Of a DNA stretch of 58,588 bases, positions 873-57,404 are shown piece after piece (position 1 is the first letter of the stretch; every line of letters starts with the position of its first letter). Location of the stretch: positions 1-58,588 of the forward strand of contig CAMDKR010000001.1 in assembly GCA_945901225.1 (NCBI GenBank). The letters are read 5' to 3'. A model generated the notes under the pieces. That model saw nothing but the letters and a program-made list of their open reading frames with translations. It searched no databases and was not told the origin of the DNA. The stretch is from Bordetella parapertussis. GTDB lineage: Bacteria > Pseudomonadota > Gammaproteobacteria > Burkholderiales > Burkholderiaceae_C. A program made the translations under genes and the position numbers.

Positions 873-2192
873 TCAATGGAATTGCTCTTCTTCGGTAGAA
901 CCTGTCAAAGCTGTAACGCTGGATTGACCGCCTTGAATGACAGTGGTGACGTCATCAAAGTAGCCGGTTCCCACTTCTTGTTGGTGTGAAACAAAACTGT
1001 AACCACGGTCACGGGCCGCGAATTCTGGCTCTTGAACCTTCTCAACATACGCAGACATGCCACGTGCGGCGTAGTCTTGCGCCAAGTCAAACATGTTGAA
1101 CCACATAGAGTGAATACCCGCCAAAGTGATGAACTGGTATTTGTAACCCATGGCACCCAGTTCACGCTGGAACTTAGCAATGGTTGCGTCATCAAGATTT
1201 TTCTTCCAATTGAAAGAAGGTGAGCAGTTGTATGCAAGCATCTTTCCAGGATGAACCTTGTGGACTGCCTCTGCAAATTTACGCGCAAATTCCAAGTCGG
1301 GTGTGCCTGTTTCGCACCACACCAAATCCGCGTAATAGGCATAAGCAATCGCACGAGAGACCGCTTGGTCCATGCCTTTTTTGGTTTTGTAGAAACCTTC
1401 TGCTGTGCGTTCGCCTGTGATGAAAGGCTTGTCATTGGCGTCGTAATCGCTGGTCAGCAAATCAGCGGCTTCAGCGTCGGTACGTGCAATCACGAGCGTG
1501 GGAACACCACACACATCGGCAGCCATACGCGCAGCAACCAACTTTTGCACCGCCTCAGCAGTAGGCACCAAGACCTTGCCGCCCATGTGACCGCATTTTT
1601 TGACCGAAGCCAATTGATCTTCAAAGTGCACACCGCCTGCACCTGCACGGATCATGGCTTTCATCAATTCAAACGCATTCAACACACCACCAAAACCCGC
1701 TTCTGCATCAGCAACGATGGGGGCAAAGTAATCGATATAGCCTTTGTCTGAAGGATTAACGCCTTTGGACCACTGGATTTCATCAGCACGACGGAAAGTG
1801 TTGTTGATGCGCTCAACCACCGTAGGAACAGAGTCCACAGGGTACAAAGACTGGTCAGGGTACATGGAGGCATAAGAGTTGTTATCAGCAGCGACTTGCC
1901 AGCCAGACAGGTAAATGGCCTTGATGCCTGCTTTGACTTGCTGCATGGCTTGACCACCGGTCAATGCACCAAGGCAATTGACATAGGCTTCGTTATTCAC
2001 CAAGTCCCACAGCTTTTCTGCACCACGACGTGACAAGGTGTATTCAATAGGAAAAGAACCACGCAGACGCACCACATCAGCAGCGCTGTAACCCCGCTTG
2101 ATGCCCTTCCAACGAGGGTTGGTTGCCCAGTCTTTTTCGAGGGCACTGATCTGTTGTTCGCGGCTTAATTGCTCTGTGATGTCTTGTGGCAT
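873..2192 (-). CDS. aceA: Isocitrate lyase
   Basis: Isocitrate lyase splits isocitrate to glyoxylate and succinate, the first step of the glyoxylate shunt used for growth on acetate and fatty acids. The 439-residue protein is close to the usual length of about 435. It carries the family signature KKCGHMGG with the catalytic cysteine at residue 200, and the metal-site stretch DAEAGFGG near residue 162. The ATG at 2192 is preceded by GGAG at a good distance. It stands alone, with a terminator behind it (821-850) and a 355-base AT-rich region in front. Three TCTTAT boxes in that region may be regulatory. Malate synthase is not in this window. Confidence 0.97.
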
Positions 2193-2547
2193 GTGTCACT
2201 CCAAGTGGAAGTTATGAATAAAAACGTTTCTAAGGGTTTATTCTATATCTTATATAAGAGTTAAATCATCTCTTATGTCTTATACATGAAATAAATTTAA
2301 TCATTCAAAAACATAAGCTTACAAAAAATATTTTGTATAGTGGAATATAAAATCGCAATACCAAAAAAATAAACCCATCAATTCCCCCCAATCGGGGTGA
2401 AAGCCAAAAAAAAGGAGAAAACAACATCCTCATTGGGAAAAGCCACTATTTCTTCGAAAAAAAGGCTTTTTCTCCCTTACGATAAGCACTGCCGACAAAA
2501 GCAATAAAGCTAGCGGCGTTTCACTCACTTCTAGAAGGAAAATGAAA
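2193..2547. other. AT-rich divergent intergenic region between aceA and the H1-SWIB gene
   Basis: This 355-base stretch holds no convincing gene. It must contain the promoters for aceA (leftward) and the H1-SWIB gene (rightward). Visible structure includes the TCTTAT boxes at 2248-2285. There is also an imperfect stem formed by GGGAAAAGCC (2436-2445) and GGCTTTTTC (2464-2472), which would lie in the leader of the H1-SWIB mRNA. An AAGGAG at about 2413 is not followed by a normal start codon. I could not pick a confident -35/-10 pair. Confidence 0.6.
2248..2285. promoter_or_regulatory. Candidate operator: TCTTAT boxes upstream of aceA
   Basis: A perfect 12-base palindrome TCTTATATAAGA lies at 2248-2259. 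Two further TCTTAT copies follow at 2271 and 2278. The cluster sits 56-93 bases upstream of the aceA start, where a repressor or activator of the glyoxylate shunt would be expected. No regulator is identified, and in AT-rich DNA such motifs can arise by chance. Confidence 0.35.
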
Positions 2548-3030
2548 ATGGCAACTGCAAAGAAAGCAGCAAAAAAAACTGCTGCAAAAAAATCTCCCGC
2601 TAAAAAAGCCGCCGCTAAAAAACCTGTTGCAAAAAAAGCTCCAGCTAAAAAAGTAGCAGCGAAAAAAGCTCCCGCAAAAAAAGCACCCGCGAAAAAGCCA
2701 GTAGCTAAAAAAGCGCCTGCCAAAAAAGCAGTTGCTAAAAAAGCAGCAAAGAAAGTCGCAAAAAAGTCGCCCGCTAAAAAGCGCACGCCTAATGCCGCCT
2801 TCATGAAACCACTGACACCCAGCGCGGCCTTGGCTGCAGTTGTAGGGTCCACTCCTTTGGCTCGCACCGAAGTTGTCAGTAAATTGTGGACATACATCAA
2901 AAAGCACGCTTTGCAAGACAAAGTCAATAAGCGCAACATCAATGCAGATGACAAGCTCAAAGCCGTGTTTGGTAAATCGCAAGTCACCATGTTTGAACTT
3001 GCAAGCCTGATTGGTAAGCACTTGTCATAA
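2548..3030 (+). CDS. Histone H1-like Lys/Ala-rich protein with C-terminal SWIB/MDM2 domain
   Basis: The 160-residue protein has two parts. Residues 1 to about 80 are an almost pure run of AKK units at roughly five-residue spacing, with Ala, Pro and Val between them, as in histone H1 tails and bacterial H1-like nucleoid proteins. Residues from about 85 onward fit a SWIB domain: [15 protein letters not shown], then [26 protein letters not shown] and a C-terminal [12 protein letters not shown]. It probably binds DNA or nucleoid through the basic tail. SWIB domains are otherwise known from chromatin remodellers and chlamydial topoisomerase. An ATG also occurs at 2542, but AGAAGG (2533-2538) is too close to it; the ATG at 2548 has normal spacing. 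Such fusions recur in betaproteobacteria, but the function is not established. Confidence 0.85.
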
Positions 3031-3043
3031 GTTCTTCCAGCAT

Positions 3044-3073
3044 AAAAAAGGGACGCATTGCGGCCCTTTTTTT
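3044..3073 (+). terminator. Bidirectional terminator between the H1-SWIB gene and clpB
   Basis: The stem AAAAAAGGG / CCCTTTTTT with an inner CGCA/TGCG pairing lies between two convergent genes. It has a T run on each strand, so it can end both transcripts. Confidence 0.85.
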
Positions 3074-3084
3074 ATTTAAACCCC

Positions 3085-5679
3085 TCACGACTTTGTGAAG
3101 GTAAATTCCCCTGGGGAAAGAATGGGGTCTACATTGATTTGTATGATGTCATGAGGCCCAAATTGACCTTCAAGCAACATCTTAGACAGCGGATTTTCAA
3201 TGCGCTGTTGTATTGCTCTCTTAAGTGGCCTAGCGCCAAAAACCGGGTCAAATCCCACTTTAGCCAACTCCTCCAAAGCTGCCACAGACACGTCCATACC
3301 TAAGTCCATACGGGCAAGCCGGTCTGAAAGAACTTTCAATTGGATCTCTGCAATCTTGGCAATGTGTTTAGCATCAAGGGAATGGAAGACGACCGTTTCA
3401 TCGATTCGATTTAAAAATTCTGGTCTAAAGTGGTTTTTTAACTCGTCCCACACCGCCTCCTTGATATCGAGGTAATCTGCGCCTGTCATTTTTTGGATCA
3501 ATTGCGATCCAATGTTTGAAGTCATGGCTATGACCGAGTTCTTAAAATCCACGGTGCGACCTTGACCATCGGTCAATCGCCCATCGTCAAGAACCTGCAA
3601 AAGAATATTAAAAACATCTGGATGGGCTTTTTCAATTTCATCCATCAAGATCACGGAATAAGGTTTGCGCCGAACAATTTCAGTTAAGTAGCCCCCTTCT
3701 TCGTAACCCACGTAGCCAGGTGGCGCGCCAATGAGTTTGCTCACCGAGTGCTTCTCCATGAATTCGCTCATATCGATGCGAACCAAATGGTCCTCGCTGT
3801 CAAACAAAAACCCAGCGAGCGCCTTGCAAAGCTCTGTTTTACCGACGCCTGTAGGACCTAAAAACAGAAATGAGCCTGTTGGTCGGGAAGGATCACTCAA
3901 TCCTGCCCGACTGCGGCGAATGGCGTTGGACACCGCCACGATGGCTTCATCTTGTCCCACAACCCGTGCGTGAAGCCGCTCCTCCATTAGAAGCAATTTT
4001 TCCCGCTCGCCTTGCATTAACTTAGAGACAGGAATACCAGTGGACCGGGCAACAACTTCAGCAATTTCTTCAGCACCCACTTGGGTCCTTAGAAGGCGCA
4101 TAGCAGGGGCTTGTCCATCGGGAGCGTCGACTGCATTCGCTGCTTTCATACGCTTTTCCAATTCGGGCAATTTGCCATATTGAAATTCGGCCACTTTATT
4201 GAAGTCACCTTTGCGTTTGAGCTCTTCAATTTGAAAACGCGTACGGTCAATTTCCTCTTTGATGACAGCGCCGCCTTGCGCTTGGGCTTTTTCGGACTTC
4301 CAAACCTCCTCAAGGTCGGCATATTCTTTTTGAAGCTTGAGAATCTCTTCTTCAATAAGCGACATGCGTTTTTGGGAGGCATCGTCTTTTTCTTTGCGAA
4401 CCGCCTCTCTTTCAATCTTCAATTGAATGAGTCGACGCTCCAACTTGTCCATGATCTCAGGCTTGGAGTCGATTTCAATTTTGATTTTGGCGGCTGCCTC
4501 GTCGATTAGATCAATGGCCTTGTCTGGCAGAAAGCGGTCGGTGATGTAGCGGTGCGAAAGTTCTGCTGCTGCAACAATGGCGGGGTCGGTAATTTCTACA
4601 CCATGATGTACTTCATATTTTTCTTGCAATCCACGCAAGATGGCAATAGTGGCTTCCACAGAAGGTTCACCCACAATGATTTTTTGAAAACGTCGCTCTA
4701 AGGCAGCATCTTTTTCGATGAAGCGACGGTATTCGTCAAGGGTCGTCGCACCTACACAATGCAACTCACCCCTGGCCAACGCAGGCTTGAGCATATTGCC
4801 TGCATCTATGGCACCTTCAGCTTTGCCAGCACCCACCATGGTATGGATCTCATCGATGAAGACAATGGTTTGTCCTTCATCCTTGGCCAACTCATTCAAG
4901 ACGCTTTTGAGTCGCTCTTCAAAATCACCCCTGAACTTAGCACCAGCTAAAAGGGATGCCATGTCCAAGGACAAAACACGCTTTCCTTTTAAAGAATCCG
5001 GTACCTCACCAGACACGATGCGCTGAGCAAGACCTTCAACAATTGCAGTCTTTCCAACGCCTGGCTCGCCAATAAGCACAGGGTTATTTTTACTGCGTCT
5101 TTGAAGGACTTGGATAGCTCTGCGAATTTCATCATCTCGTCCAATGACCGGATCGAGCTTTCCCATTCTGGCTCGCTCAGTCAAGTCAAGTGTGTATTTT
5201 TTGAGAGCACCTCGCTGACTCTCTTCATCAGCAGACTTGACCGTTTCACCACCCCTTAAAGACTCGACAGCTGCTCCCAGGTTTTGCCTGCTCAAGCCGT
5301 GCCGTCTGGCAAGCTGTCCCAAATCAGACTTTGAATCGGATAAGGCCAGTAAAAACATTTCGCTGGCTACGAATTGGTCTCCCCTCTTGAGGGATTCCTT
5401 TTCAGCTGACTGCATCAAAGTGACCAAATCACGCCCAACTTGAACTTGGTCTTGACCGTGAACTTCGGGTAACTTTGCAATTTCCTCTTCACTGTCCTTC
5501 AAAAGTCCAGCGATATTGACGCCTGAGCGCATCAACAAGGTACGCGGGCCATCGTCTTGGCGCAACATAGCGACCAATAGATGACATGGCTCTATATAAG
5601 CTTGATCTTTGGCAAGTGCAAGTGACTGCGCATCAGACAGCGCTTCTTGGAATTTGGTGGTTAGTTTGTCGAGCCGCAT
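3085..5679 (-). CDS. clpB: ATP-dependent disaggregase ClpB
   Basis: ClpB is the hexameric Hsp100 chaperone that pulls proteins out of aggregates together with DnaK. The 864-residue length is typical. The order seen is the N-terminal Clp repeat domain (residues 1-145), first AAA+ module with Walker A GEPGVGKT at Lys210 and Walker B VFIDEIH, then the Lys/Glu-rich middle coiled coil (about 410-520). The second AAA+ module follows with GPTGVGKT near residue 610 and Walker [11 protein letters not shown], and then the D2-small domain. It lies behind moaE with a 74-base gap containing a good sigma-32-like promoter (5712-5740), which fits a heat-shock gene that is transcribed separately from the molybdopterin genes. 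Confidence 0.97.
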
Positions 5680-45662: not shown

Positions 45663-46505
45663 TCAACCAAAACGACCGGTAATGTAATCTTCAGTTTCTT
45701 TTCTTTTGGGTTTGAAAAATACCTGTTCAGTATCGCCAAATTCAACCAAATCACCCAGATACATATAAGCTGTGTAGTCTGAAACGCGAGCAGCCTGTTG
45801 CATATTGTGAGTCACGATCACCACGGTATATTCAGTTTTAAGAGTAGACACCAGTTCCTCAACCTTGCCGGTTGAAATGGGGTCCAGCGCTGAGGTGGGC
45901 TCATCCAGCAACAAAATAGCTGGTTTCACAGCGATACCTCTGGCGATACAAAGTCGCTGCTGTTGACCGCCAGAGAGTGACAAACCGCTTTGGCCCAATT
46001 TATCCTTCACCTCATTCCAAATAGCAGCTTTTTGTAAAGCCCATTCAACACGGTCATCCATTTCTGAGCGAGAAAGGTCTTCGTAGAGACGGATCCCGAA
46101 AGCAATGTTGTCGTAGATGGACATAGGGAACGGCGTAGGCTTTTGAAAAACCATGCCAATGCGAGCACGAAGCAAATTCAAATCTTGCTTGGCATCAAGA
46201 ATATTTTTACCGTTGAACATGATTTCACCTTCAGCCCGTTGGCCTGGGTAAAGGTCATACATGCGATTCAAAGTGCGCAGCAAAGTAGATTTACCGCAAC
46301 CGGAAGGCCCAATGAAGGCAGTAACCGAGTTTTTCTGGATATCAAGATTGATATTTTTAAGACTGTGAAATGAACCGTAATAAAAATTCAAATTGCGAAC
46401 TTCCAAAACGTTTTGGGAAAGTACTTCGGGTGAGGCAGTGGTTTGCATATTGCGAACTTCCAAAACGTTTTGGGAAAGTACTTCGGGTGAGGCAGTGGTT
46501 TGCAT
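45663..46505 (-). CDS. pstB: Phosphate ABC transporter ATP-binding protein, with duplicated N-terminus
   Basis: PstB powers the high-affinity phosphate importer. The protein has Walker [16 protein letters not shown], the signature [16 protein letters not shown] and Walker [14 protein letters not shown]. The odd point is the N-terminus: 19 residues, [19 protein letters not shown], occur twice in a row because 57 bp of DNA are perfectly duplicated (46392-46505). Starting at 46505 gives 280 residues; starting at the inner copy (46448) gives 261, which matches the family. The inner ATG has GGAAG eight bases upstream, created by the duplication, while the outer one has only a weak site. The shorter form may therefore be the main product. 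Confidence 0.95.
46392..46505. repeat. Perfect tandem duplication, 2 x 57 bp, inside pstB
   Basis: Bases 46392-46448 and 46449-46505 are identical over 57 bp with no base between. The length is 19 codons, so the reading frame is kept and the ATG start is duplicated too. Perfect identity implies a recent event, or an assembly error. Confidence 0.97.
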
Positions 46506-46541
46506 AATGAAGTTTTTTCAATAAGGGAGAAGTTATGGCGG

Positions 46542-57347: not shown

Positions 57348-57348
57348 C

Positions 57349-57404
57349 CGTCATTGCGAGCGAAGCGAAGCAACCTCCGTCATTGCGAGCGAAGCGAAGC
57401 AACC
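57349..57404 (+). repeat. Two direct copies of a dispersed 27-bp repeat
   Basis: A 27-base unit starting CGTCATTGCGAGCGAAGCGA occurs at 57349-57375 and again, identical, at 57378-57404, with two bases between. A third, inverted copy lies at 58369-58395. This sequence type is a well-known dispersed intergenic repeat in many proteobacteria. It is not a CRISPR, since the spacing is only two bases. Confidence 0.9.

Follow-up and report, generated by a model that had tools for sequence, protein, structure and literature searches.

A lysine-tailed SWIB-domain protein of Burkholderiales as a candidate nucleoid-architectural protein

Results

A small gene encoding a lysine-rich tail and a SWIB domain

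The window, by which we mean the whole stretch of 58,588 nucleotides that was analysed, carries a gene for a 160-residue protein in which a lysine-rich tail precedes a SWIB/MDM2 domain. The gene lies between two larger genes, which serve here as context and are outside the system under study. The features of the locus are as follows.

873–2192, minus strand: aceA, isocitrate lyase, divergent neighbour (context)
2533–2539, plus strand: Shine-Dalgarno-like AGAAGGA, 8 nt before the ATG at 2548, found by direct reading
2548–3030, plus strand: gene of the AKK-tail SWIB protein, 160 residues plus stop
2548–2781, plus strand: lysine-rich tail, residues 1–78, with 16 AKK units, predicted disordered
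2806–3024, plus strand: SWIB/MDM2 domain (PF02201), from profile search and structure model
3044–3072, plus strand: hairpin between the convergent genes, with an A-rich 5' arm and a T-rich 3' arm (−13.1 kcal/mol, z −2.56)
3085–5679, minus strand: clpB, convergent neighbour (context)

An alternative ATG at 2542 would give an open reading frame of 162 residues (2542–3030), but we favour the ATG at 2548 because of its spacing from the AGAAGGA motif and because 129 of 185 relatives whose start was recognised open with MATAKK. The hairpin downstream of the gene is a possible terminator; it is absent from the output of the formal terminator scan, which returned seven sites; all seven are on the minus strand, and five fall within the AKK-coding repeats. 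The promoter scan found no promoter, against 1.7 expected. Two minus-strand open reading frames overlapping the gene (2430–2990 and 2521–3021) were dismissed as artefacts that read the complement of the AKK repeats.

Across 47 loci of the same genus, the isocitrate lyase gene stands divergently upstream in 29 (among the 18 without it, 9 have less than 400 bp of sequence on that side) and clpB convergently downstream in 37; neither adjoins the gene in any of 18 loci outside the family but within the order. A fixed operon partner was rejected on these counts. A phage origin was also rejected: PHROGs gave no match up to an E value of 0.1, and 50,697 phage records gave none either. Elsewhere in the window, two perfect tandem duplications were seen, one of a 57-bp unit (46392–46506) and one of a 29-bp unit (57348–57404).

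Ala, Lys and Pro make up most of the tail, which has a net charge of +32 and, in the AlphaFold model of the full-length protein, a pLDDT of about 45–58 per block and no secondary structure. At the DNA level, the stretch 2565–2748 is tandemly repeated according to Tandem Repeats Finder, with 12.3 copies of a 15-bp period and 4.1 copies of a 45-bp period. A degenerate DNA pattern for AKK(A/T)PAKK, searched with up to three mismatches and with 100 shuffles as control, matches 12 times in the window, always at 2569–2781, against a shuffle mean of 0.27. Scores of the tail against the H1-like families HC2 (PF07382) and hist_H1_lk_Burk (NF038053) are 38.2 and 38.6 bits, under the respective curated cut-offs of 40 and 80, and membership of both was rejected on that ground.

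The SWIB domain is the conserved part of the protein

The C-terminal part matches the Pfam SWIB/MDM2 profile over its full 74 positions (94.1 bits, cut-off 25, E 4.3e-27). An AlphaFold model of the domain, built with 45 aligned relatives, has a pLDDT of 90.1; its top Foldseek match is the Arabidopsis SWIB structure 1v31 (E 1.2e-6), followed by chains of the BAF/PBAF complexes and by MDM2. VIA-align gave Z scores of 12.0–12.9 against BAF60-type chains and of about 11 against MDM2, which places the model in the SWIB fold. The best solved relative by sequence is yeast UAF30. A preliminary description of this DNA, made from the letters alone, had proposed some 80 residues of AKK repeats ahead of a well-formed SWIB domain in one 160-residue protein, and both parts were found, the domain withstanding the structure-prediction check.

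We compared 83 codons, covering the SWIB domain and a short stretch ahead of it, with those of related genes. The window differs from L034, L039 and L029 by 31, 33 and 7 synonymous changes, respectively, and by no amino-acid change; in six further genomes 1–18 amino-acid changes occur beside 31–39 synonymous ones. The absence of amino-acid changes next to 31 and 33 synonymous ones in two relatives indicates a real gene. By these codon comparisons the domain is under strong purifying selection, and we regard it as the conserved core, with the tail as an adjustable accessory.

The conservation of the domain, which is far above that of the tail, would also suit a regulatory adaptor, in which a peptide of RNA polymerase or of another regulator docks in the SWIB groove and the tail only holds the protein near DNA. 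MDM2, a structural match of the SWIB model, is a peptide-binding domain according to its entry titles, and UAF30 is a subunit of an upstream activation factor. However, a peptide partner of SWIB in bacteria is not known and some SWIB proteins are reported to affect DNA packaging, so that we consider an adaptor role unlikely.

Tail length varies widely between species

The length of the tail ranges from 38 to 107 residues in the genus of the window (median 72, 42 proteins). Among all 169 distinct proteins it ranges from 3 to 107 (median 52), in a survey whose same-family loci are the best SWIB scorers and seem biased towards short tails. These 169 were collapsed from 193 open reading frames, after 17 of 210 had been dropped because their start did not match the pattern. 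The dropped frames comprised contig-edge pieces, topoisomerase fragments, a protein of 323 residues and some genuine small ones. Short tails were found in Lampropedia (6 residues, L145), Bordetella (11, L168), Comamonas (13, L134) and Brachymonas (17, L118). Five proteins (L176, L182, L186, L191 and L192) are near-tailless, with 4–7 residues ahead of SWIB, and form one group in the domain tree (support 100/98); several genomes with such proteins hold other SWIB proteins too. The SWIB domain does not offset a short tail, given that the SWIB part is slightly less basic in short-tailed proteins (mean charge +5.7, n=46) than in the longest-tailed ones (+7.0, n=16). The expectation that tail length would vary is thus borne out between species, whereas a coating of DNA by the tail, proposed from bacterial H1-like proteins, is ruled out as a function shared by all members, given the relatives with tails of 3–17 residues.

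Such a range, from 3 to 107 residues among 169 proteins, could mean that the tail is largely neutral low-complexity sequence, changing by slippage, and that SWIB alone matters. The tail DNA contains 12 A-runs of six or more, the tail of the near relative L029 has exactly one extra 5-residue, 15-bp unit compared with the window, and longer tails occur at loci of lower G+C (Spearman −0.40 over 184 loci, a value that ignores kinship and counts some genomes twice). Against neutrality, the tail pattern is kept at the protein level, because codons differ while composition stays: four Ala codons are in use in the window, and the high-G+C relatives that were read encode Lys by AAG. Moreover, the shortest of the 42 genus tails still has 38 residues and 7 KK pairs. 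We therefore hold a neutral tail to be improbable.

SWIB domains are present throughout the family

Of the 200 genomes sampled from the family of the window (115 genera), every one has a SWIB match, as do 57 of the 61 genomes of the genus sample, the four without a match being 62–84% complete. Elsewhere in the order, 40 families were sampled with one genome each, and 13 of these genomes match. The class sample comprised 281 genomes: three family members match, and among the other 278 there is one match above the cut-off and two below. The phylum sample gives 27 matching genomes in 249, of which 8 belong to the family, 2 to the rest of the order and 17 lie outside the class. Fourteen control genomes gave no SWIB match. 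Among the named matches, the best 80 of 567, are Limnohabitans and numerous Comamonadaceae, which suggests that the window belongs in or close to Limnohabitans. SWIB domains had been introduced as known from eukaryotic chromatin remodellers and chlamydial proteins; they do occur there, but are not confined to those groups, as the family and phylum genomes show and as an earlier report agrees (PMC6426960).

On plasmids, 40 of 72,556 records have a SWIB match, and relatives there already carry the annotation 'SWIB/MDM2 domain-containing protein'. Together with the 200 of 200 family genomes, this corrects the view of the gene as a rarity. The SWIB genes on plasmids of Variovorax, Microvirga and Comamonas (L282, L283 and L284) encode 84–86 residues and are tailless; they are possible plasmid-borne nucleoid proteins.

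Three further loci deserve mention. In genome G027, a protein of 323 residues (L077, 4362–5330, minus strand) ends in a SWIB domain, has no Pfam match in its N-terminal part and is a third SWIB protein of that genome. A metagenome-assembled genome labelled Singulisphaera holds a SWIB gene (L131) on what is probably a misbinned contig, since it has a tail of the Comamonadaceae type and a clpB neighbour. The SWIB domain of another, labelled Bacteroidia (L163), clusters with other Burkholderiales rows in the domain tree.

A second SWIB domain resides on DNA topoisomerase III

At least 90 of the 200 family genomes encode a topoisomerase III that matches PRK14724 (NF011313) through to the end of its SWIB domain. 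All 90 carry at least two SWIB matches, and in the 17 of them whose second SWIB locus was read, it was in every case the small protein. By match count, 93 of the 200 genomes have a single SWIB match, which argues that the small protein is independent of the SWIB topoisomerase. In the genome of the window itself, contig C72 carries a further SWIB domain, preceded by a topoisomerase C-terminal repeat, and contig C169 carries one Topoisom_bac domain; in the relative G049 a single 1010-residue protein unites Toprim, Topoisom_bac, Toprim_Crpt and SWIB. Ten hand-picked topoisomerases III without SWIB all end in a lysine-containing stretch with 1–9 KK pairs.

The SWIB domain of the topoisomerase is weakly basic (mean charge +2.2, n=39, against +5.7 to +7.0 in the small proteins), which does not favour DNA as a shared ligand and hints that such a ligand may be a protein. 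In a domain tree of 80 columns, the topoisomerase copies cluster (support 80/80; 76% of 200 bootstrap trees, the bootstrap being unconverged), so that their SWIB domain likely had a single origin. On one side of a branch with support 95/91 are 41 rows, mostly from other families; on the other are the topoisomerase copies and the majority of the Comamonadaceae small proteins. One exception, L202, the small protein of a genome with the topoisomerase III fusion (G189), is placed among the other families and counts against our reading of the tree. Identical domains were collapsed in this tree, leaving the window without a row of its own; the contig-edge topoisomerase piece L022 is labelled as such, and the long-branch sequences L203 and L077 were excluded. 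In the simplest history, topoisomerase III would first have been lysine-tailed and would later have acquired SWIB from a gene related to that of the small protein, perhaps by way of the AKK-coding DNA common to both.

Discussion

We favour the view that the protein is a small basic nucleoid-architectural protein, which we consider somewhat more probable than all other roles together. Its mechanism is argued mainly from precedents, the plant protein SWIB-4 and the Waddlia protein Wcw_0377, by analogy with which the AKK-tail SWIB protein would bind and compact DNA. The same reading is suggested by the SWIB fold, the strong purifying selection, the presence in 200 of 200 family genomes and the predicted disorder and +32 charge of the tail, as well as by the scores of the tail against the two H1-like families, though these lie under the cut-offs, and by the co-occurrence of the topoisomerase III fusion in at least 90 of the 200 genomes. 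In such a protein SWIB would be the conserved working part, making a specific contact with another SWIB protein, with a peptide held in an MDM2-like groove, or with DNA. The lysine tail would act as a flexible polycation that neutralises and compacts DNA irrespective of sequence, to a degree graded by the number of 5-residue units. On the other side, besides the weak charge of the topoisomerase SWIB and the 93 genomes with a single SWIB match, compaction driven by the tail cannot be general, since short-tailed relatives exist, and the genome does not otherwise lack a polycation, since two other H1-like proteins score above the NF038053 cut-off (G000:C2:33213-33680 and G000:C11:10295-10774, with 98.2 and 90.6 bits). 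The proposal of a nucleoid protein with an H1-like tail thus survives as the best explanation, helped by both precedents, but not with the tail as its defining part.

In the clade of the window, DNA topoisomerase III also carries this domain, preceded by a lysine-rich linker, and most simply the small protein and the SWIB-bearing topoisomerase would find the same target, or each other; this link is speculative. A wider and tentative idea, which we consider rather unlikely, is that SWIB is an address domain of the bacterial chromosome. In Comamonadaceae, the copy on a length-tunable polycation would compact DNA while the copy on topoisomerase III would go to the same sites or partner, coupling compaction to topology; Chlamydiae would have arrived separately at a similar arrangement with topoisomerase I, and tailless versions on large plasmids would compete or bridge.

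Part of this is known: the SWIB domain itself, the layout of H1 motif plus SWIB and the occurrence of SWIB in some Proteobacteria are described (PMC4154389, PMC6426960), and SWIB-fused topoisomerase III exists as an NCBIfam entry. In one open-licence library of papers, we found no report of the family-wide presence of SWIB, of the range of tails or of a topoisomerase III-SWIB partner, and no paper on SWIB with topoisomerase III or in Comamonadaceae. For Burkholderia, Bordetella, Cupriavidus, Polaromonas and betaproteobacteria the same library gave papers that mention SWIB once each and no paper focused on it; in the accessible text of a Collimonas study, one SWIB/MDM2 protein figures as a table entry only. 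In passages of two papers, SWIB is called rare in prokaryotes outside Chlamydia (PMC12445093) and the stand-alone domain is said to be the sole bacterial type (PMC4154389); proteins with tails and the fused topoisomerase III are at odds with both statements. Although each of the 200 genomes sampled from this large bacterial family has a SWIB domain, that library seems to lack a paper dedicated to it. As nature provides the domain in long-tailed, nearly tailless and topoisomerase-borne forms in free-living bacteria, the role of bacterial SWIB is directly testable.

Comparison with known systems

AlgP of Pseudomonas aeruginosa resembles the window protein in having a disordered Lys/Ala/Pro repeat tail, variable in repeat number, joined to a folded part, and is reported to associate with polyphosphate granules and to be needed for their spacing (PMC9239181). 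By this likeness the tail could mainly bind polyphosphate or RNA, and the protein would organise granules rather than DNA. However, the AlgP tail is a C-terminal KPAA repeat on a helical domain, no SWIB being mentioned in the accessible part of that account, whereas the window protein has N-terminal AKK units on a SWIB domain and so falls outside an AlgP-like family; relatives with tails of 3–17 residues also speak against a granule role, which we regard as rather remote.

HC2 and hist_H1_lk_Burk share with the window protein a tail rich in lysine and alanine, but their models contain no SWIB. PRK14724 also ends in a lysine-rich linker and SWIB, and its last 130 positions match the window protein with 116.5 bits; it is, however, an enzyme of about 1000 residues, whereas the window protein lacks catalytic domains, has no topoisomerase Pfam domain and reaches those 116.5 bits out of 1088 (NF011313), which does not make it a topoisomerase III.

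Chlamydiae, too, are described as having a small SWIB protein (CT460, Wcw_0377) together with a type IA topoisomerase carrying SWIB, TopA-SWIB (CT643, Wcw_1713) (PMC6426960, PMC12445093). Their small protein appears in the accessible passages as SWIB only and tailless, in contrast to the tailed window protein, and their enzyme is topoisomerase I instead of the topoisomerase III of the family studied here. Chlamydia TopA stripped of SWIB is reported to retain complementation. Waddlia Wcw_0377 is reported to give 1920 ChIP peaks along the genome (PMC6426960).

The nearest precedent in function is SWIB-4 of plant plastids, in which an H1 motif adjoins SWIB and which is reported to bind DNA, to compact nucleoids and to complement E. 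coli hns (PMC4154389; Melonek et al. 2012, as covered in the reviews PMC4154389, PMC8383295 and PMC7209962). Both are small proteins with a basic H1-like region beside a single SWIB domain. SWIB-4, from plants, has a mass of 12 kDa and an H1 motif where the window protein has a long AKK repeat, and the two are likened here by layout and not by descent.
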